From IMG/VR virus record IMGVR_UViG_3300032116_000312, positions 1 through 49,900 of that record: DNA of 49,900 nucleotides; one strand, given 5' to 3'. Made by a program: the position numbers and the translations under genes. This document shows positions 37,567 to 47,168 of this stretch, in pieces (the first letter of the stretch is position 1; every line of letters starts with the position of its first letter). The DNA comes from a virus. Below the pieces are notes generated by a model. That model made no database searches. It was not told the origin of the DNA and worked only from the letters and a program-made list of their open reading frames with translations.

Positions 37567-38250
37567 ATGCTGCCGGGTATCTCCAACGCCGCATTGCTGG
37601 GTGCTGGGGCAGTAAGCCCCGGAACGCAGACGTTCTCGACGGCCGGATCATTTTCTTTTGTCGTCCCCAACTACAACACGATCACCTTCACGCTGAATGG
37701 TGCCGGTGGTGGTGGTGGTGGTTCGCAGGGTAATGACGGGTACAGCGGAACGGCGGGAACGGCCGGTGGAGACACCAGAGTTTCATTTGGCGCAAACACC
37801 TTGAATGCTGGCGGTGGTCGCGGTGGCGGCGTCGGTCTTTATCGCGGCAACAATGGCGCGGGTGGTGCTGGCGGCATTGCCTCTGGCGGCTCTATAAATA
37901 CGAACGGCAATCCGGGAACGACAGGCTTCAACAATTCCAACGGCGGATCGTCTCCAAATGGCGGTGCTGGTGGCGTGGGGGCAAACCGTGCCCAAGCCAC
38001 GCCGGGAGAGGCACCCGGCGGTGGCGGCGGTGCCCCTTACCTTTTTTCTGGTGGTAGCTCTTCCTTCACCCAGTCCGGCGGCGGCGGTGGTGGCGGCGGA
38101 TATGTCTTTGCAAGCTTCACTGCGGGGTTAGGCCCGTTGCCGGGGTCAACAATCACATTGGTTGTAGGGGCTGCTGGTGCTGCTGGCGCGGTGTCTCTTG
38201 GAACTCCGGGGCCGGGCGCTGCCGGTAGAATTATCGTAACAGTAGCCTAG
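37567..38250 (+). CDS. Second glycine-rich receptor-binding protein
   Basis: A 227-aa protein. A short N-terminal part (GAGAVSPGTQTFSTAG) precedes a beta strand (SFSFVVPNYNTITFTLNGAG) and a polyglycine-rich domain, ending in GAAGRIIVTVA. The strand-then-polyglycine build and the GR-I-VTV end match the glycine-rich protein at 17903, so the two are probable paralogues using the same fold for receptor contact. It is the last gene of the late plus-strand block; its stop codon overlaps the stop codon of the converging GcrA-like gene. Confidence 0.7.
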   Translation: MLPGISNAALLGAGAVSPGTQTFSTAGSFSFVVPNYNTITFTLNGAGGGGGGSQGNDGYSGTAGTAGGDTRVSFGANTLNAGGGRGGGVGLYRGNNGAGGAGGIASGGSINTNGNPGTTGFNNSNGGSSPNGGAGGVGANRAQATPGEAPGGGGGAPYLFSGGSSSFTQSGGGGGGGGYVFASFTAGLGPLPGSTITLVVGAAGAAGAVSLGTPGPGAAGRIIVTVA

Positions 38251-38573
38251 CTCTGCTTATTTATAGGGATGTAGCAGAGCTTGTAGTGCTCTTTGCAATA
38301 TGACCGCTTGGCGACTGGCTCGCCGCAAAAGAGAGTGCCGAGATCCTCGTCGCTCCCGGTGACGTACCGGCACGAGTTATAGCGCAGGTCCATGATCGTC
38401 ACCTTTGGCTTCGCGCGAAGCTCCACCCTGCCGCTGATGCGCAGCGTGTAGACGTGATGGCTGACCTCTTTTTTAGAGAGGCCAACCTCAATTGAAATCT
38501 GGGAAAACGACAGGCCGCCTACCCAGAGTTCCAGTATTTTGTTGATTGCATCGCCGCCGCCGTGCATCTTCAT
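38247..38573 (-). CDS. gcrA-like: GcrA-like cell-cycle transcription regulator
   Basis: A 108-aa protein. The N-terminal helix-turn-helix (ILELWVGGLSFSQISIEVGL, then SKKEVSHHVYTLRISGR) and the C-terminal CRY...LFCGEP...SYCKEHYKLCYIP (Cys68, Cys83, Cys93, His96) follow GcrA of Caulobacter and relatives. GcrA binds sigma70-RNA polymerase and activates promoters with CcrM-methylated GANTC sites. This copy is shorter than host GcrA, mostly because the central linker is reduced. It lies 25 bp after the DnaA-domain gene. The start at 38573 is uncertain (TTG at 38576 and ATG at 38567 are alternatives), and no clear ribosome-binding site is seen. Confidence 0.8.
   Translation of the reverse strand: MKMHGGGDAINKILELWVGGLSFSQISIEVGLSKKEVSHHVYTLRISGRVELRAKPKVTIMDLRYNSCRYVTGSDEDLGTLFCGEPVAKRSYCKEHYKLCYIPINKQS
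38249..38281. other. Hairpin at the convergent gene ends
   Basis: A perfect 9-bp inverted repeat, AGCTCTGCT with AGCAGAGCT, encloses a 15-base loop at the point where the late plus-strand block meets the minus-strand arm. There is no T-run on either strand. It lies inside the 3' end of the GcrA-like gene and could slow or end transcription from both sides; this is uncertain. Confidence 0.4.
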
Positions 38574-38585
38574 CAAGCCCGTTAG

Positions 38586-38594
38586 TTATCCAAA
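38586..38594. promoter_or_regulatory. DnaA-box-like site before the GcrA-like gene
   Basis: TTATCCAAA on the plus strand matches the DnaA box TTATCCACA at eight of nine positions. It fills part of the 25-bp gap between the DnaA-domain gene and the GcrA-like gene. Binding has not been shown, and one such match can arise by chance. Confidence 0.35.
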
Positions 38595-38598
38595 GTCG

Positions 38599-39018
38599 CT
38601 AAAGGGCTGACGAAACTAGACTGGGCTCATCGAGAGTAGCGGTACGCTCGGTGAGCCTTTTTTCATGCGTCTTAATCGCGTGCAGTATCGTCGTGTGGTC
38701 CTTGTGGCCAAGAAGCTTTCCGATCTGCTGCAATGTCAGGCCGCGCTCCATGCGCAGGCGGTATGCCGCCTCCTGACGTGCCAGAACATACATCTGCTTG
38801 CGTGACGTCCCCTTGATGTCCGCAAAGCTCACGCCGTGGCTTTTGGCGACGCGGTAGATGATCTGGTCGGGCGGATTGATAAAGGTGGGCTCTTTAAATT
38901 CGATCACTACGGGCTTAGGCGGCGGCTCAAAGCTCTTCTCTTGTTTAAATTTTGATGTGTCGCTGATGCGCGCACGAACTGCGCGGTAGTGGGCATGCAA
39001 TTCTTCCAGCGTTTGCAT
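38599..39018 (-). CDS. Stand-alone DnaA domain IV-like DNA-binding protein
   Basis: A 139-aa protein. Residues of about 50-122 match the C-terminal DNA-binding domain of DnaA: VSFADIKGTSRKQMYVLARQ, YRLRMERGLTLQQIGKLLG and the signature GHKDHTTILHAIKTHEK. The N-terminal 50 residues are charged and unstructured; the AAA+ ATPase domain is absent. It could bind DnaA boxes without initiator activity, thereby competing with host DnaA, or mark a phage origin. The ATG at 39018 follows AGGGAG; an earlier ATG at 39060 would run through the terminator hairpin and is rejected. The GcrA-like gene follows. Confidence 0.85.
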   Translation of the reverse strand: MQTLEELHAHYRAVRARISDTSKFKQEKSFEPPPKPVVIEFKEPTFINPPDQIIYRVAKSHGVSFADIKGTSRKQMYVLARQEAAYRLRMERGLTLQQIGKLLGHKDHTTILHAIKTHEKRLTERTATLDEPSLVSSAL

Positions 39019-39031
39019 TGATTGGCTCCCT

Positions 39032-39060
39032 AAAGAAAAAGTGGGCGCTTTCGCGCCCAC
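39032..39060 (-). terminator. Rho-independent terminator before the DnaA-like gene
   Basis: On the minus strand a perfect 8-bp stem, GTGGGCGC with GCGCCCAC, has a GAAA tetraloop and is followed by TTTTTCTTT. It lies two bases after one stop codon, and its T-run ends four bases before the AGGGAG ribosome-binding site of the next gene. Expression of that gene therefore depends on read-through. Confidence 0.9.
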
Positions 39061-39062
39061 CG

Positions 39063-39353
39063 TCAGTTCTTCTTGTCCATTTGTTCCATGGCCTCTTTGG
39101 CCGCGTCGAAATTGTTCTCAATCAACTTGCGGACGTCGCTCACATAGGCGTCGAGGCCGTCGAGTGCCGCCTCCTTAGTGCGAGCCCCTCCGAACAAGAG
39201 GCCAGCAAGCAGGTTCGTGTTGAACGTGGCGAGCGTGCTGATGTTCTCGTAGGGGTCGCCATTCGGGATGGCGTCGAGCAGCGCGACGGCCAGATGGCGC
39301 AGGCCCTCGTCGGTAAGTTCTATTTCGTTGCCCTTTGTGTCTTCGTCGTTCAC
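39063..39353 (-). CDS. Small acidic protein of unknown function
   Basis: A 96-aa acidic protein, helical by pattern: ELTDEGLRHLAVALLDAIPN, a central TLATFNTNLLAGLLFGG segment and a charged helix to the end. It uses a GTG start that overlaps the previous stop codon (GTGA), with GGAGAG upstream, so it is translationally coupled to the previous gene. The central hydrophobic stretch is short for a membrane helix. No family is recognised. Confidence 0.65.
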   Translation of the reverse strand: MNDEDTKGNEIELTDEGLRHLAVALLDAIPNGDPYENISTLATFNTNLLAGLLFGGARTKEAALDGLDAYVSDVRKLIENNFDAAKEAMEQMDKKN

Positions 39354-39748
39354 TTGTTCTCTCCGTCGTTCTGGACAGGCGCGAACTTGGCGGCCAGATC
39401 CTTGATCTCCTGCTCCATCTCAACGTCAAAAATCTTGACCGTCGGCTGCTTTGGCTGGGGCATCTGCACCGGCACGGGGACGTCGTCACGGACCTGCGCC
39501 GCCTCTGCCGCAAAGGCGAGGTAGTTGATGCCATCGAAGTAGTTGTCGGCCTTCTTGCGATCGGAGCGGATGCGGGCCAGCTTCAGGCAGTGGAGCATCA
39601 TGTTTACCTGATAGGGCGTGATGTCCTCGCCCGTGATCGTGTTGTAGATGACGCAAACACGTTCAGCCGTGTCGTTCACGTCGCCATATTCCAAAGTGCG
39701 ATCAGTAAAGATGGATGCGGATTTGGTGATGATGTCTGCATATTTCAT
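39350..39748 (-). CDS. Phage protein of the TLEYGD/DUF6378 type
   Basis: A 132-aa protein. Its first 90 residues (TDRTLEYGDVNDTAERVCVI, TGEDITPYQVNMMLHCLKLA, then a DNYFDGINYLAFAAEA end) match a common phage family often labelled DUF6378, with conserved YGD, a helical core and a D-x-x-GY/NY motif. The name is from memory and the function is unknown. The last 40 residues are Pro/Gln-rich and acidic. The ATG at 39748 follows AAGGAG; an in-frame GTG six bases earlier is less well placed. Confidence 0.7.
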   Translation of the reverse strand: MKYADIITKSASIFTDRTLEYGDVNDTAERVCVIYNTITGEDITPYQVNMMLHCLKLARIRSDRKKADNYFDGINYLAFAAEAAQVRDDVPVPVQMPQPKQPTVKIFDVEMEQEIKDLAAKFAPVQNDGENK

Positions 39749-39759
39749 TTTCACTCTCC

Positions 39760-40482
39760 TTAATTAATGCGCTTCATCAGATCATTGATGCGCTTCGACA
39801 AGTCACTGATCGCCTGATCAGTGGTAATCTTTTCCTTCTTCAGCTCAGTCAGGACGCGTTCCTGACTGGTCAGAAGGCCCGTAAAATCCCTGATAGACAC
39901 TTCAATCTTCTTTTGAAGTGCCTGTCCTTTCTCAATTACGCCATTCATTTGCAGGACTTCCTGCCGTGCTCCCGAGCCGAACTCTGGCCCGAAATTGTCT
40001 TCCCGGATGCCCTTCACCCACGCAAGTGGAACTTTCAGGCCCTCGGCGACGCGGGTGTCATTCCACCCGGTGTCATAGCCGCGCATCTCGTCGATGTAAT
40101 GACTATCAATCTCAGAGAAAATGATGCGGCGGTCTTCTCTCGTAATTTCCGGCGGCGGGTCTGCTCTCACAGTATCGATCTCCATTTTAATTGCGGGCGC
40201 TGGCCCTTCACTTGTCTTTGGTTCTGTTTTCTTTTTCTTCAATTCCAATTCTTTGGCTATGCATGCCGGGCACAAGTCATCTCTGACCCGGTGGCCGACA
40301 CGCCAGCCCTTCTGAGTGAACTTCTTCGCTGTCACCTCCGGCGGAAGAGAGCCAGAATGCGTGGCATTTGCGATCACTTCTGAATTGGAACAGGCGCGAC
40401 ACTTGATGAGATAACCAGACTTCGCTTTCCCATCTACAATATGCGGCGACCTAATAAATGTTCTCCCATGCGGCACTGACAT
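39760..40482 (-). CDS. Zinc-ribbon/coiled-coil protein, possible DNA-binding regulator
   Basis: A 240-aa protein. An N-terminal zinc ribbon uses Cys28/Cys31 and Cys71/Cys74. A Lys-rich linker leads to a helical segment (EITREDRRIIFSEIDSHYID, then VAEGLKVPLAWVKGIRE) that looks like a helix-turn-helix, and the last 75 residues form a coiled coil. The ATG at 40482 sits six bases after GGAG in the leader ATGGAGATCGATATG. A near copy of that leader occurs inside the gene at 40173-40185 before an in-frame GTG (40170), which could yield a 136-aa form without the zinc ribbon. A regulatory role is inferred. Confidence 0.65.
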   Translation of the reverse strand: MSVPHGRTFIRSPHIVDGKAKSGYLIKCRACSNSEVIANATHSGSLPPEVTAKKFTQKGWRVGHRVRDDLCPACIAKELELKKKKTEPKTSEGPAPAIKMEIDTVRADPPPEITREDRRIIFSEIDSHYIDEMRGYDTGWNDTRVAEGLKVPLAWVKGIREDNFGPEFGSGARQEVLQMNGVIEKGQALQKKIEVSIRDFTGLLTSQERVLTELKKEKITTDQAISDLSKRINDLMKRIN

Positions 40483-40508
40483 ATCGATCTCCATATAATT
40501 TTCTCGAT

Positions 40509-40772
40509 CTACTCCATCGAGCGCGTGACGTTTCCCATTACTTTCACCTTGCCAACGTAGCGGTAATTGATCGCGATCTGACCGACCGGGTAGTAGGACT
40601 CCGCGCCGCGCGGCGCTTCGGTGTCACGATAAAACTCGTCAACGATTAAGAAATCGTTGCTCTGGAGAACATCGACAAATTCCTTCAGGCTTTTTGCTTC
40701 GTTCTCGCAAATAATTTGATGGATTTGCTGACCGGAGCGGGCAGGCATGTTCATTGTGATAAGGAATTTCAC
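40509..40772 (-). CDS. Small protein of unknown function
   Basis: An 87-aa protein with an alternating helix and strand pattern (KFLITMNMPARSGQQIHQII, KSLKEFVDVLQSNDFLIVDE, GQIAINYRYVGKVKVMG). It uses a GTG start six bases after GGAG. It lies between the putative single-strand DNA-binding gene and the zinc-ribbon gene on the early minus arm, which suggests a role in replication or regulation. No family is recognised. Confidence 0.65.
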   Translation of the reverse strand: MKFLITMNMPARSGQQIHQIICENEAKSLKEFVDVLQSNDFLIVDEFYRDTEAPRGAESYYPVGQIAINYRYVGKVKVMGNVTRSME

Positions 40773-40792
40773 ATCATTCTCCGTTGTGGGTA

Positions 40793-40814
40793 GGGGCGAG
40801 CCGAAGCCCGCCCC
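40793..40814 (-). other. Intercistronic hairpin after the SSB-like gene
   Basis: On the minus strand GGGGCGGGC pairs with GCTCGCCCC (one G-U) around a TTCG tetraloop, six bases after a stop codon. TACCCAC follows instead of a T-run, so it more likely protects or processes the mRNA than ends it. Confidence 0.5.
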
Positions 40815-40820
40815 GGTTTA

Positions 40821-41480
40821 TTAGCCGAAATCCTCGTCGTCGGCGGGCGCTGCAGCCTTGGGAGGTGCGGCGCGCGTCGAGCCAGTCGAGGGCGGTGCAG
40901 AGCGGGCGGGTGCCTCTTCGGCCGCACCACCGCGCGAAGGCGCGTCGGCAAGGTCGTTGGGGCGCTTGACCCAGCTAGAGATCTTGAAGACCGGCTGGTA
41001 GTTCGTTGATTTCTTTGCGCCAGCGCCGCTTTCGATCGCGACACTGTCTTCGAGGACGACGACGGGCAGCTTGCCCGGATTGGCCTTCAGGCCGGCAATG
41101 TAGTCATTGTGAAGGAGGTCAATCCCCTTCATCATAGCAGCAGCCGTGCCCGCCAATTCGCGGCAGTCGCCGCCGCATTCCTGCGAAAGCTTGACCACCA
41201 TGCGGATGCCGCGCTTGTGGTTCTCCGACGGCCTCTCCGGGAAGCCGGAGCCGTGTGAGACCATTTGGAAGTCGGGGGCAGACCCCGCGTTAAAAGAAAT
41301 CCAACCAACTTCGAGGTTCTCAAAGTCAAAGACAGCCTTAAAGCTGCGGGTGATGTCAGTGGGTGTTGATACACCATCTTCGCGGTCAACGCGAAAGAAA
41401 CGACCCGCACGGGCGTCGTACTTCACGATCGGAAGGAAGTTGGCCCCACCTGTGCCACCATATTCAAAACCGAGTGCCAT
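40821..41480 (-). CDS. Probable single-stranded DNA-binding protein
   Basis: A 219-aa protein. Residues 1-170 are a beta-rich core (ALGFEYGGTGGANFLPIVKY, then AVFDFENLEVGWISFNAG and YQPVFKISSWVKRPNDL). The last 45 residues are Pro/Ala-rich and end in the acidic tip DDEDFG, like the C-terminal tips of SSB proteins that recruit partners. Phage proteins with this arrangement are commonly annotated as ssDNA-binding. It lies downstream of a recombination-type nuclease, which fits. The ATG at 41480 follows GGAG at eight bases; an earlier ATG at 41504 lies inside a hairpin and is rejected. Confidence 0.68.
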   Translation of the reverse strand: MALGFEYGGTGGANFLPIVKYDARAGRFFRVDREDGVSTPTDITRSFKAVFDFENLEVGWISFNAGSAPDFQMVSHGSGFPERPSENHKRGIRMVVKLSQECGGDCRELAGTAAAMMKGIDLLHNDYIAGLKANPGKLPVVVLEDSVAIESGAGAKKSTNYQPVFKISSWVKRPNDLADAPSRGGAAEEAPARSAPPSTGSTRAAPPKAAAPADDEDFG

Positions 41481-41496
41481 TTGCTTTACTCCATAT

Positions 41497-41516
41497 GAGG
41501 CCATTTGGCTGGCCTC
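41497..41516 (-). promoter_or_regulatory. Hairpin in the SSB-like leader
   Basis: A perfect 7-bp stem GAGGCCA/TGGCCTC with a 6-base loop ends three bases before the GGAG site of the SSB-like gene. No T-run follows. A translational control element is possible. The rest of 41517-41588 shows no feature. Confidence 0.35.
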
Positions 41517-41588
41517 TTGCCTTCGCCCACATGGGCAGAACTGCTTCGACGGGTCGGGCGCAACTCCGACTGGTAACCTCAGCGATCT

Positions 41589-41735
41589 TCACAGTGTCAC
41601 CGTCTCTATCCCTGCTGTGCCACCGGATAGTCGTGTGCATGGGGGCTCGCCTTCAGGTTCCTTCTTTACCCATGAATTATTTGTGTTTCTGCTTTCAACA
41701 CCGCCGTCGAACTCGTCACAGGCCCCACACTTCAA
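41589..41735 (-). CDS. Possible small CxxC protein overlapping the nuclease end
   Basis: A 48-aa frame starting LKCGACDEFDGG, with a CGAC zinc-type pair and one more cysteine near the middle. A TTG at 41735 would be the start, inside the 3' end of the nuclease gene, with AAGG eight bases upstream. The CxxC-x-x-F/W-D-G start resembles small zinc-binding phage proteins. It would fill most of a 235-bp gap on the early arm. Evidence is weak because the start codon is rare and no family is confirmed. Confidence 0.35.
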   Translation of the reverse strand: MKCGACDEFDGGVESRNTNNSWVKKEPEGEPPCTRLSGGTAGIETVTL

Positions 41736-42465
41736 ACGCGGCCTTGCGGGCCATTGGGTCTGCAAAATAGAAACTGTCCACCTCGGGCACGACGTAGGAC
41801 GCCAGTACCTTTGCGTCGTCACTGAGGGACAGGAACCTCTGGATAGTCAGCGCAATCTTTTCCAACGCGAGAAGGTGCTCGCGAGCGTTTTCGAGATTGT
41901 ATGTCGCAGACTTTTTCGGGGTGATGTAGGAAATACGAGCATCGAGATTGTCGCCCCGCGCAGCGCGATACAGTGCAACTTGCCGAGCGTGATTGGTTGA
42001 GATTTTCGACGGCAGCGCATGCGTAGTTTTGATGTCAGTGAGAATGCCATGGTCGGCCCACTCCACGTCATAAAATCCAATCATAGGCACGAGAAGGTCG
42101 TCGAAACGATACTCAATTTTACCCTGCGTTGATGTAGGTTTCCCGTAGGGGCGCAGCTCTTTCAGGCCGGTCAAGACCATGTCCTTGATCGCGCCCTCTT
42201 CCTTTTCGCGGCGCGAGTCGCCCGACAGTGCAGTCAGCGTCTTGAACTCTTCCTGCGCAAGCCTCACGCATTCGTCATCAGACAAACCGTCGAGAATGCC
42301 AGCAACAACTCCGCTCTCCACAGCCGTCCCCCGATGTGCCGCAGCGCCCACCTGTGTGCGGACCTTCATGCATTTCTGCAGGACGAACATGGCGGGGGAC
42401 GAGACAAACAAGTTGCAACTCGACGGGGAAAGATGTTCGATTTCGTAAGCTTCAAAAGGGTTCAT
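41716..42465 (-). CDS. PD-(D/E)XK nuclease, Cas4/RecB-type exonuclease
   Basis: A 249-aa protein. LSPSSCNLFVSSPAMF starts the fold, AHRGTAVE (His44, Glu50) is the helix motif of RecB/Cas4-like nucleases, and Glu118, Asp133 and the DIKT motif (Asp144, Lys146) give the metal site. A QVALYRAA motif follows in the position of the family's Q-x-x-x-Y helix. Such phage exonucleases resect DNA ends for recombination or degrade host DNA. It is the first gene of the minus early arm, started from the operator region; the ATG at 42465 is chosen, because the longer frame runs through that region. Confidence 0.82.
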   Translation of the reverse strand: MNPFEAYEIEHLSPSSCNLFVSSPAMFVLQKCMKVRTQVGAAAHRGTAVESGVVAGILDGLSDDECVRLAQEEFKTLTALSGDSRREKEEGAIKDMVLTGLKELRPYGKPTSTQGKIEYRFDDLLVPMIGFYDVEWADHGILTDIKTTHALPSKISTNHARQVALYRAARGDNLDARISYITPKKSATYNLENAREHLLALEKIALTIQRFLSLSDDAKVLASYVVPEVDSFYFADPMARKAAFEVWGL

Positions 42466-42618
42466 GACGGTCTCAATCTGAATAGGGTTGCGACGATAGG
42501 CTGATTTGCGGAAACCAGTCAACAGACATTTTGTCCATCCACAGGCTTGACGCTTTAGACAAAATGTCTCAACGTCGTCGTCCTGATTTGCATGAGGGGC
42601 CGTCAAGGAATGACTGTG
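42466..42618. promoter_or_regulatory. Divergent early control region with paired operators
   Basis: This noncoding gap lies between the nuclease and HTH genes. Two 11-bp sites, GACATTTTGTC (42525-42535) and GACAAAATGTC (42558-42568), each have GACA-N3-TGTC symmetry and together form a 12-bp inverted repeat; their centres are 33 bp apart, about three helix turns. A leftward promoter candidate has TTGACT (42522-42517) and TATCGT (42498-42493) on the minus strand, spacer 18. Rightward, TTGACG (42547-42552) lies between the sites, with no clear -10. CCATCCACA (42535-42543) resembles a DnaA box at seven of nine positions. Confidence 0.7.
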
Positions 42619-42819
42619 ATGACTAAAAAGGCGATCGATTGGGAGCTGGTGGAGCGTGCTGCACTGCAACTCGGCGTCTCCCAGTTCGCGATCGACAAGT
42701 GGCGTCAGCGCCAGTCGATCCCGCACAAGTGGCGGCCGCAGCTCGTGATCCACACGGGCGGCGTCATCTCGTGGAAACAGTTCGAGCTGCTCGACAAACA
42801 GGCAAGGAAAGTCGCGTGA
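42619..42819 (+). CDS. Small HTH regulator, Cro/excisionase-like
   Basis: A 66-aa protein with a helix-turn-helix pattern, ERAALQLGVSQFAIDKWRQR followed by QSIPHKWRPQLV, reminiscent of Cro/YdaS-type regulators. The ATG at 42619 is preferred because AAGGA lies nine bases upstream; the ATG at 42610 touches that site. It is the first gene of the plus early arm and directly follows the paired GACA-N3-TGTC sites, so it is the best candidate to bind them and control both arms. The stop codon overlaps the resolvase start. Confidence 0.7.
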   Translation: MTKKAIDWELVERAALQLGVSQFAIDKWRQRQSIPHKWRPQLVIHTGGVISWKQFELLDKQARKVA

Positions 42820-43286
42820 TTTACATTGGAATTGACCCCGGCCTGTCTGGAGCTATTGCGGTCTTCGACCTTGAGAAGGGCCACCTGTCAATTATTGACA
42901 TGCCGGTCGTCGAGATCGTCCGCAACGGCAAAAAGAAGCGCGAACTGTCCCCGGCCATGCTCGCCAATGTCCTGAGCCTGATCGAGAAGCCCTCGACGGC
43001 CGTGGTCGAACGGGTCGGCTCAATGCCGGGCCAAGGGGTGTCGAGCGTCTTTTCCTTTGGGCGCAGCCTCGGCTGTGTCGAGGGGGCTTTGGCCGCCCTG
43101 CAGATCCCCACAATCCTTGTCCCGCCCCAGCAGTGGCAGAAGGCCTGCTCGGTGCGCGGCGGCAAGGACGGCTCGCGCCTGCGCGCCGCCGAGATATTCC
43201 CGAATTTCGCGGGCCTCTTCGCCCGCAAAAAGGACGACGGCCGCGCCGATGCGGCCTGCATGGCGTGGTTTGCGGCAACTAAATAA
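42816..43286 (+). CDS. RuvC-like Holliday junction resolvase
   Basis: A 156-aa RNase H-fold nuclease. IYIGIDPGLSGAIAVFD holds Asp7, AVVERVG holds Glu65, and KKDDGRADAACMAW holds Asp141 and Asp145, giving the acidic metal site of RuvC. GVSSVFSFGRSLGCVEGAL is the conserved middle helix. The enzyme cuts four-way junctions in replicating or recombining phage DNA before packaging. A GTG start overlaps the HTH stop codon, with AAGGAAA upstream; the longer frame runs through the HTH gene and is rejected. Confidence 0.85.
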   Translation: MIYIGIDPGLSGAIAVFDLEKGHLSIIDMPVVEIVRNGKKKRELSPAMLANVLSLIEKPSTAVVERVGSMPGQGVSSVFSFGRSLGCVEGALAALQIPTILVPPQQWQKACSVRGGKDGSRLRAAEIFPNFAGLFARKKDDGRADAACMAWFAATK

Positions 43287-44040: not shown

Positions 44041-46203
44041 ATGTCGCTGCCGACAGATGGAAGTGGTGGAATTAACATGATGAATGCCGCGTTTGACCCT
44101 GATTTTGCCGACCCAAATGAATGGGCGCGCATGTATCGCGCGATTGGCTTTCAGGTTGTTCCTGCAATGACACCTCGTGAAAACCGCCAGCAGTGGAAGC
44201 GCCCTGCTCTGCCGAAGTGGCGCGAGCTTGAACACGAGCGCGTGCCGGACTTCACGTTTGAGCGGTGGTATGGCGAGAATGGTGAACATGCACGCCGCAA
44301 CAACATGGGCGTCATTGCTGGCGCATGCTCCGACGGCCTCATGGTCATCGACCTCGACTTCCAGAAAGATCCGCGCGCACAGGCGTGGTGGATGGATATG
44401 CTCGACCGCCAGCAGCGCGCAGGCGAGCTGGAGACCATTGAGCAGGTGACAGGCGGTGGCGGTGCGCAGCTATTTTTCCGCGTGTCTGCTGGCTTTACGC
44501 CTCCCACCTGCAAGACCTCGATCGGCGTCGATATTCGCGGGCAGGGCGGCTTCGCCATGCTCCCCCCGTCTATGCACGAGAGCGGCACGCCCTACCGCTG
44601 GAAGCCCGGCTGCGAGCCGTGGGACGTGGAAATTGCGGACGCTCCGCAGTGGCTGTGCGACGCAGTCGTCCAGCTTGCCATGGAGCATGGCGGCGCGTCT
44701 GGCGTAAACCCGGTGACAGGGGAGCGCGAACTTACTTCGACCCCGGCGCACGCGATCGACAGCTTCGGCAATATCGTGGACGGCCGCGAGGACTACATGA
44801 CCCGCCTCGTCTGGGCGGCGGTCGTGAACGCCCGCAGGGATGCCCCGATCCCCATGACGTCGGCCGAGAATGCCGAGACCATGATGGCGGCCTTTGCCAA
44901 TTACGAGCGCCACGTCAAAAGCCGGATCCTTGAGCCGGGCACGCCAAATGCTGTTCTGCTTGAGCGTGAGGGCCGTGGCCTCTCGATGTTCCAGCACAAA
45001 TGGGCCAATGCCATGGCCCAGTGGGATGGCAAGGTTGCCGTCGCCGCGAAGGTCGAGAAGCCCTCCCGCCCTTTTGAGATCGAAGCCCCGAAAGAAATCC
45101 AAGGCTATGACTTTAACCCGGAGACGGGTGAACTCACGCCCAAGGCCGTCGAGGCTCCCGAGGGCAGTTTTGAAGTTCTGGACGTTAAGGGGATCAAGTC
45201 TTTGCCCAATCCGAATTACCTGATCGACAAGCTCATGATCGAGACGGCGCTGGGCTTTGTCTTCGGCGCTCCCGGCTGCGGCAAGTCGTTTATCACGATC
45301 GGCATGGCACTCTCGATCGCTGCAAAGCAGGCGCAGTGGTTTGGCCGTGACATCAAGAAGACTGGCCCCGTCGTCTACATCTCCAGTGAAGGCGTCGGCG
45401 ACATGAAATATCGCATCGCCGCGTGGGAGCGCGAGACTGGCATCAACGCGGACGACGTGCCCTTCTACCTGATCCGCCAGACCATTAACTTCATGCTCCC
45501 GACTGACGTCGATCGCCTGATCAAGACGGTCGCCCACGTCGCGCAGCTCACAGGCCAGACGCCTGTCGCCATTTTTGTAGACACCGTCTCTCGCGTGCTT
45601 CCGGGGGCAGACGAAAATCTTCAGAAGGACATGACGCTGTTCATCTCGGCGTGCGACGCGCTGCGCACAACATTTGATGCGACAGTTGTCGGCGTCCACC
45701 ACACGTCGCGCGCCGGTAACCTGCGCGGCTCTACAGTGTTTGACGGCGCTGGTGACTTTTTGCTCGGCATCGAGCGCGAGGAGGGCGAGACTGTCGGTTA
45801 CCTGAATGCGAAGAAGATCAAGTCGGCGCAGGACGGCTGGACGCAGCCGTTCGAGCTGAAGAGCGTTGTCGTCAACGACATCACTGGCGAGGGCTCTCTG
45901 TACGCCTGCCCGTGCGACGAGGTGAAACGCGACGCCAATGCGTGGCCTGCGAAGGACGTCTGCCGCAAGATCCTGCAGGCGATCAGCAAGGCGTGGCATG
46001 ACGGCAAGCCGTGGTCGAGCTACCCGCAGACACGAAAGCAGGGCCGTTATGCGGCGGCGATCATCTCGAAGCAGTTCGACGTCGTCGAGAAGGTTGCCGA
46101 GAACATGATCGACACATGGCTCAACAACGAGGTTCTGTCCTACGAAATGGTGGACAAGAATACGAAGATGCAGGGACTGCGTGTGGTCGGGGGGATTGAT
46201 TGA
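44041..46203 (+). CDS. Primase-polymerase/helicase fusion
   Basis: A 720-aa replication protein. The N-terminal primase-polymerase domain (about 25-215) has WARMYRAIGFQVVPAM, the metal-binding pair Asp104/Asp106 in LMVIDLDFQ, VTGGGGAQLFFRV and GVDIRGQGGFAMLPPS. A linker (about 220-385) leads to a RepA/DnaB-like AAA domain with Walker A GAPGCGKS (Lys415) and Walker B AIFVDTVSR (Asp514), then VVGVHHTSRAGNLRGST. It would unwind the fork and make primers, possibly extending them. No DNA polymerase gene is visible in the window. The methyltransferase start overlaps its stop codon. Confidence 0.87.
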   Translation: MSLPTDGSGGINMMNAAFDPDFADPNEWARMYRAIGFQVVPAMTPRENRQQWKRPALPKWRELEHERVPDFTFERWYGENGEHARRNNMGVIAGACSDGLMVIDLDFQKDPRAQAWWMDMLDRQQRAGELETIEQVTGGGGAQLFFRVSAGFTPPTCKTSIGVDIRGQGGFAMLPPSMHESGTPYRWKPGCEPWDVEIADAPQWLCDAVVQLAMEHGGASGVNPVTGERELTSTPAHAIDSFGNIVDGREDYMTRLVWAAVVNARRDAPIPMTSAENAETMMAAFANYERHVKSRILEPGTPNAVLLEREGRGLSMFQHKWANAMAQWDGKVAVAAKVEKPSRPFEIEAPKEIQGYDFNPETGELTPKAVEAPEGSFEVLDVKGIKSLPNPNYLIDKLMIETALGFVFGAPGCGKSFITIGMALSIAAKQAQWFGRDIKKTGPVVYISSEGVGDMKYRIAAWERETGINADDVPFYLIRQTINFMLPTDVDRLIKTVAHVAQLTGQTPVAIFVDTVSRVLPGADENLQKDMTLFISACDALRTTFDATVVGVHHTSRAGNLRGSTVFDGAGDFLLGIEREEGETVGYLNAKKIKSAQDGWTQPFELKSVVVNDITGEGSLYACPCDEVKRDANAWPAKDVCRKILQAISKAWHDGKPWSSYPQTRKQGRYAAAIISKQFDVVEKVAENMIDTWLNNEVLSYEMVDKNTKMQGLRVVGGID

Positions 46204-47168
46204 TGAACTATATTATATTTGGTGACTGCCGTAACACCATGCGCCAGTGGGCTGCTGACGGCGTTAAGGCTCAGACATGCGTGACAAGCCCGCCCTACTT
46301 TGGCCTGCGCGACTACGGCCACGAGGGCCAGATTGGCCTTGAACAGACGCCGGAAGAATACATCAAGGCGATGGTCGATGTGTTCCGCTGCGTGTGGGAT
46401 GTGCTGGCTGATGACGGTACGCTGTGGCTGAACATTGGCGACAGCTACAGCAGCAATCCGGCTACTGGTAAAAAAATTGGCGGCGAGTCGTATCGTGGGT
46501 CAAGCACCCCTTCGTTAAACACGGAGCAGCAATGTCGTGTTGCCTACCGTGGAAACGGTGTGAAATCAAAAGACCTGATCGGCATCCCGTGGATGTTGGC
46601 CTTCGCGCTGCGCGCTGACGGCTGGTATCTGCGTCAGGACATCATCTGGCATAAGCCGAACCCGATGCCTGAGAGCGTTAATGACCGCTGCACTAAGGCG
46701 CACGAATATATCTTCCTGCTGTCTAAGTCGCAGAAGTATTTTTACGATGCAGAAGCAGTCAAGGAGCCCGTCGCGACCAGCTCTATTGCGCGACTGTCTC
46801 AGCCAAAGCTAAAGGAGCAGACGGGCAGCGCCCGTGTGCCGGGCAAAACCAACGGGAATATGAAGGCTGTTGGAAATGCCGAAGGCCGCAACCGCCGCAG
46901 CGTTTGGACGGTTAACACGAAACCATACAAGGGCGCACACTTTGCCACCTTCCCGCCCGCGCTCATTGAGCCGTGTATTCTTGCAGGTTCTCGCAAGGGC
47001 GACATTGTCCTCGACCCGTTCATGGGCAGCGGGACGACGGCGGCTGTCGCGCTTCAGCACGGTCGCCAGTATCTTGGGTGCGAGCTGAACCAAGAGTATG
47101 AGGCGTTGCAGCAGCAGCGCATCAGTGAGGCAAGCAAGGGTGTGAGCCAGCTTGTGATGTTTGATTAA
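46203..47168 (+). CDS. Beta-class DNA methyltransferase (solitary)
   Basis: A 321-aa methyltransferase. The catalytic motif TSPPYFGLRDYG is N-terminal (residues 28-39) and the AdoMet-binding motif DPFMGSGTTAAVALQHGRQ is C-terminal, the beta-class order used by N6-adenine and N4-cytosine enzymes, including CcrM. It lacks the C-terminal extension of CcrM. No restriction gene accompanies it, so it probably protects phage DNA or marks it for regulation. The target cannot be read from sequence. The ATG overlaps the previous stop codon (TGATG). Confidence 0.85.
   Translation: MNYIIFGDCRNTMRQWAADGVKAQTCVTSPPYFGLRDYGHEGQIGLEQTPEEYIKAMVDVFRCVWDVLADDGTLWLNIGDSYSSNPATGKKIGGESYRGSSTPSLNTEQQCRVAYRGNGVKSKDLIGIPWMLAFALRADGWYLRQDIIWHKPNPMPESVNDRCTKAHEYIFLLSKSQKYFYDAEAVKEPVATSSIARLSQPKLKEQTGSARVPGKTNGNMKAVGNAEGRNRRSVWTVNTKPYKGAHFATFPPALIEPCILAGSRKGDIVLDPFMGSGTTAAVALQHGRQYLGCELNQEYEALQQQRISEASKGVSQLVMFD

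Follow-up and report, generated by a model that had tools for sequence, protein, structure and literature searches.

GcrA of Caulobacter crescentus (structures 7ye1 and 5yix) is a cell-cycle activator of 173 amino acids in which a linker (residues 46–107) separates a helix-turn-helix (HTH) from a sigma70-interacting domain (SID) that binds sigma2 (PMC7403470). It reads m6A-GANTC (PMC3667746) and carries the recognition helix RNAVIGKVHR. Phage-borne GcrA has been known since phiCbK, where it was suggested in 2012 to give the phage a hold over the host cell cycle (PMC3556154), and has also been reported in S. meliloti prophages (PMC12429752) and in a coral phage. The phiCbK protein gp222 and other alphaproteobacterial phage GcrAs match PF07750, combine HTH and SID, and have been proposed to act on the cell cycle; gp222 is a full-length protein whose linker is long, and the stretch of its record that was examined contains no annotated DnaA-like neighbour. 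Lone DnaA domains are likewise known, as the PHROG 27829 proteins annotated in Rhizobium, Synechococcus, and Microcystis phages consist of domain IV without the ATPase. Among small phage proteins acting on host sigma, AsiA, gp39, and P7 are unrelated to GcrA and target sigma region 4, in contrast to the GcrA SID (PMC7403470). Phage control of host replication initiation is exemplified by YfdR (PMC4776307) and a staphylococcal phage DnaI inhibitor (PMC4887207); as described there, they bind DnaA or helicase-loader proteins, and neither is itself a DnaA domain IV, unlike the protein analyzed here.

We analyzed a locus in which a DnaA domain IV (DnaA-IV) gene adjoins a GcrA-like gene. The window spans an entire IMG/VR virus record (49.9 kb); "linear" records of that set are often fragments. 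Virion genes occupy the plus strand up to position 38250, and the pair forms the final two genes of a minus-strand operon running from 42465 down to 38247. The upstream part of this operon (39063..42465, minus strand) encodes, by family matches, a PDDEXK nuclease, a DUF6378 protein, and three plus one small unassigned proteins, in a gene order common to most pair-bearing phages. The DUF6378 protein (39350-39754, minus strand), located next to the pair, matches phage families labelled phosphofructokinase, and almost every relative of the operon retains it. The divergent operon, on the plus strand, includes genes for a small HTH protein, a RuvC-like resolvase, a PrimPol-AAA protein, and a methyltransferase. 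The phage host is probably an alphaproteobacterium; a survey of 385 genomes recovered mainly host DnaA itself and no host for the pair. Several 6-bp palindromes are missing from the window (GGCGCC, 0 vs 33 expected; CCGCGG, 0 vs 29; AGCGCT, 0 vs 22), as if restriction sites were avoided. Within the openly licensed papers that our literature search covered, no report was found of a DnaA-IV/GcrA pairing, of a GcrA reduced to its SID, or of the N-terminal motif described below; because the search was limited to such papers, their novelty is only weakly indicated.

The first gene of the pair (38599..39018, minus strand; ORF 39060-38599) most likely starts at the ATG at 39018, which has AGGGAG upstream. 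Its 139-aa product comprises an N-terminal HYRAVRARI helix, a Pro-rich linker, and DnaA domain IV, as delineated by PF08299, AlphaFold/Foldseek, and family alignment. PF08299 matched residues 64-130 (E 1.4e-17, 63.9 bits against a curated cut-off of 31.5 bits; profile positions 1-67 of 69), and the AlphaFold model reached pLDDT >90 across most of residues 63-143. The top Foldseek matches were DnaA chains, and the model superposes on 1j1v, E. coli domain IV on its box (rmsd 0.8 Å, 75 columns). Sequence matches extended to the DnaA proteins of E. coli, Aquifex, Mycobacterium, and Bacillus; the top two rows of that table were designed repeat proteins, with no stretch passing alone. In a gapless alignment to 1j1v, the protein keeps R399, R407, D433, H434, and T435, which we take to be the box-contact residues of E. 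coli DnaA in its usual numbering. Across 20 aligned phage DnaA-IV proteins, R95 and D121-H122-T123 were invariant and R87 nearly so, and all but a few relatives shared the N-terminal helix H-Y-x-x-V-(R/K)-x-R and a Pro/Glu-rich linker. Relative to the PHROG 27829 proteins, the group thus adds the HYxxVRxR motif, the linker, and a GcrA neighbour. Neither the Pfam search nor the predicted structure of the 139-aa protein contained the AAA+ ATPase domain III of a full DnaA initiator. A preliminary description had proposed a DnaA DNA-binding domain without its ATPase, naming structure prediction and loss of DNA-recognition residues as the ways to challenge it; the profile match, the predicted domain IV fold, and the retained contact residues all bear the proposal out.

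The second gene (38247..38573, minus strand; ORF 38576-38247), with a likely start at the ATG at 38573, lies about 25 nt beyond the DnaA-IV stop, adjacent and co-directional as first described. It encodes a 108-aa protein with an HTH (~residues 7-48), a linker of about five residues, and a SID, assigned from PF07750, 7ye1_G, 5yix_B, and comparison with host GcrAs. The PF07750 match (E 8.1e-12, 46.2 bits, curated cut-off 26.9 bits; profile 88-149 of 155), together with a SID that almost directly follows the DNA-binding domain, agrees with the earlier reading as a shortened GcrA. PDB sequence matches were 7ye1_G, over both domains, and 5yix_B. The AlphaFold model, of moderate quality (pLDDT 77), contains the HTH and found Caulobacter GcrA as its best Foldseek match (7ye1_G, rank 1, E 2e-3; 5yix_B, rank 3, E 6e-2), so the proposed fold was also recovered for this partner. 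The HTH-SID order and the invariant Cys/Cys/Cys/His set of the SID are both shared with Caulobacter GcrA, and the SID, whose core is conserved, may bind sigma70 domain 2. The DNA-reading part has changed. Most positions of the recognition helix (KKEVSHHVYT) differ from RNAVIGKVHR, which is constant in three host GcrAs, whereas full-length phage GcrAs retain a TR..V.G.IHR-like helix. Reading of m6A-GANTC by the window protein is therefore unlikely, judging from its sequence. The preliminary description had host GcrA act through CcrM-methylated GANTC promoters, and the loss of recognition residues that it named as contrary evidence was found here at the sequence level.

The GANTC content of the phage was consistent with an alphaproteobacterial host. 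The window contains 13 GANTC sites vs 190 expected, a stronger depletion than that of any other 2+N+2 motif, and 94 vs 1332 expected were counted over 18 relatives plus the window. A trait peculiar to pair-bearing phages was considered and dropped: observed/expected ratios were 0.10-0.20 in four alphaproteobacterial loci and 0.17 in phiCbK, and depletion was previously described for pelagiphages (PMC9516812). We therefore take GANTC scarcity mainly as a mark of the host. Depletion was stronger in loci whose GcrA lacks the DNA-binding domain (median ratio 0.05 with such a GcrA adjacent vs 0.49 with a non-adjacent GcrA retaining the domain), but the difference tracks phage lineage and no conclusion is based on it. 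GANTC-driven phage promoters were also dropped as a candidate, as there are 13 sites in 49.9 kb and those inspected lie inside genes. The methyltransferase (46200-47168, plus-strand operon), which the preliminary description had pointed to as a beta-class enzyme in the same genome, matches the CcrM core. Its best stretch covers residues 195-259 of the 366-residue CcrM chain 6pbd, MboIIA scores equally, and end-to-end comparison found no counterpart of the CcrM C-terminal domain. Because the match to CcrM is confined to the core and equalled by MboIIA, the enzyme does not count as evidence for a GANTC module, and a methyltransferase-GcrA module was rejected.

DnaA boxes were neither enriched nor clustered in the window or its relatives, and the window contains one strict box. 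With so few host-type sites in the phage, the targets of the pair would lie in the host, or the address would have changed. One improbable alternative is that the DnaA-IV protein serves as an origin-binding adaptor for a PrimPol-helicase replisome, with GcrA as an unrelated neighbouring transcription factor. The label of PHROG 27829, the closest phage family (DnaA-like replication initiation protein), and the PrimPol-AAA and RuvC-like genes in the divergent operon fit this proposal, but neither the two searched regions nor the surroundings of the operators showed iterons or a DnaA-box cluster, the protein has no helicase-loading domain, and the coupling to a SID is left unexplained. The scarcity of sites also bears on a close rival of the joint function that we favour, namely that the two proteins are separate dominant-negative mimics of host regulators, which is near to the preliminary description and which we regard as possible yet doubtful. 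The ATPase-less DnaA-IV protein would occupy host DnaA boxes, blocking initiation and DnaA-driven genes, the SID would compete with host GcrA for sigma70, and both together would keep the host cell cycle in check during phage replication, for which the phage would use its own PrimPol-helicase. Each protein does retain the part that occupies a target and is without the part needed for host function (the ATPase; the methyl-GANTC helix or the HTH), and the phage does have its own PrimPol-AAA protein. Host DnaA, however, is abundant and ATP-cooperative, and high levels of a lone domain IV would be required. Nor does mimicry alone explain why the two genes lie side by side in either order, with overlapping codons in relatives. 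If the proteins are two blockers, they would give phages a compact means of acting on the replication control of Alphaproteobacteria.

The association recurs well beyond the window. A viral-contig search with the DnaA-IV alignment confirmed 321 relatives and retained 80 of them; a GcrA SID profile was then used to look for neighbours. DnaA-IV proteins with the N-terminal HYxxVRxR motif were widespread among viral contigs. An adjacent or overlapping same-strand GcrA-like neighbour was present in 27/41 motif-bearing loci with enough downstream sequence, and a same-strand GcrA-like neighbour in 4/31 loci without the motif. The pair was found in the near-identical contigs G001 and G002 (98-99%) and, at 69% and 79% identity, in G004. 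Both genes are under purifying selection, with dN/dS of about 0.17 and 0.22 between the window and L035. Among DnaA-IV clusters at 70% identity, 13 place DnaA-IV first, as in the window, and 5 place GcrA first; these clusters are not independent events, because most pair-bearing loci share one operon type. That shared operon, together with a poorly resolved SID tree, is what speaks for inherited synteny, in which the genes act singly and adjacency reflects no joint function. We consider this explanation improbable, as the pair remains adjacent in L070, L077, and L086 although most of the shared operon is missing there, and the opposite order, an arrangement separate from that of the window, occurs in L082, L084, L092, L097, L236, and L253. 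The recurrent adjacency in both orders, together with overlapping start and stop codons in relatives, supports a functional link between the two genes.

Three GcrA architectures were distinguished. Class I consists of HTH, linker, and SID (e.g. L039, L043, L066, L068, L070, and L077), and class II of an HTH with a changed helix and almost no linker before the SID (the window, L032, L033, and L035-L037). Class III is SID only (69-87 aa), with ~30-35 residues preceding the first SID cysteine and a start codon (ATG) that falls within the DnaA-IV gene, 4-14 nt before its end. In most relatives the DNA-binding domain of the GcrA partner is gone while the SID is retained, and dN/dS of the SID-only genes is <1. 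Its loss takes five changes on the SID tree, which is poorly resolved and whose firm branches force just one. A reverse search from class III found the MIMDDL/MSDD type adjoined by DnaA-IV wherever sequence allowed. Two of the SID-only loci (L225 and L228) contain zero GANTC. A GcrA-like protein of a Manatee Spring phage (L013:1368-1928) has, by eye, apparently two HTH-like stretches before its SID.

We tentatively favour, at somewhat below an even chance, a role of the pair as an early phage transcription-control module, a two-part sigma70 regulator derived from two cell-cycle proteins of the host. The GcrA-like protein would grip domain 2 of host sigma70 via its SID, and the DnaA-IV protein, presumably touching it, would provide the DNA address at the promoters concerned. 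In the window phage, GcrA would still use an altered HTH of its own; because most relatives have lost the HTH and keep the SID alone, the DNA-binding role would there have passed to the DnaA-IV neighbour. Activation of phage genes appears more likely than shut-off. The pair may work in the manner of T4 AsiA, which has a separate DNA-binding partner, MotA. This arrangement is favoured because it explains adjacency in both orders, the overlapping codons, and the survival of the SID without a DNA-binding domain. Against it, the window GcrA has an HTH of its own and would not have to borrow one, a binding site common to the phages did not emerge from the DnaA-box searches, no fusion of DnaA-IV with a GcrA domain occurred among the loci examined, and the SID-only L222, L225, L228, and L275 have no DnaA-IV within their available DNA. 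A stricter form of the proposal, possible but doubtful, holds that GcrA was cut down to its SID and its methyl-DNA reader replaced by a separate DnaA domain IV, so that a host activator timed by methylation would have become a phage activator addressed to DnaA boxes. The putative takeover module of the preliminary description is partly supported, namely in its domain identities, missing ATPase, short GcrA, and gene link, but not in its GANTC reading and methyltransferase; a takeover of host replication timing may occur. If the pair is one unit, it shows how a cell-cycle activator can be dismantled and redirected to a new DNA address, and would supply small natural tools with which sigma binding by GcrA can be separated from its DNA reading. 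Either as one unit or as two blockers, the pair gives a testable role to short, easily missed genes in dozens of uncultivated phage contigs.

The control region is consistent with early expression of the operon. The gap between the divergent operons (about 42467-42618) contains a twin palindrome, GACATTTTGTC / GACAAAATGTC (42525..42568), 33 bp start to start; L112 and 14 other loci have it at the equivalent place, spaced by 33 or 34 bp. A conserved stretch, TTGAC and GCAAATCAGCCTA-like, follows it. The twin palindrome is likely the operator for the operon whose last genes are the pair, with the small HTH protein (42619-42820) as the candidate protein that binds it, and from its sequence the region looks like an early, repressor-controlled promoter. 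In the window, CCATCCACA, which resembles a DnaA box, lies between the two operators; it was dropped as a candidate because it is not conserved. The contig of L112, which has both pair and twin operator, is binned as an Opitutae genome and is most likely a misbinned phage contig. Within the operon, a scan identified a terminator-like hairpin followed by a T run (39040..39061, minus strand) directly before the DnaA-IV ribosome-binding site. The hairpin is kept in L032, L033, and L035, letter-identical in stem and loop in L035, and is missing from other relatives. It is a possible attenuator of the pair, whose expression, given this conservation within the window lineage, may depend on read-through.
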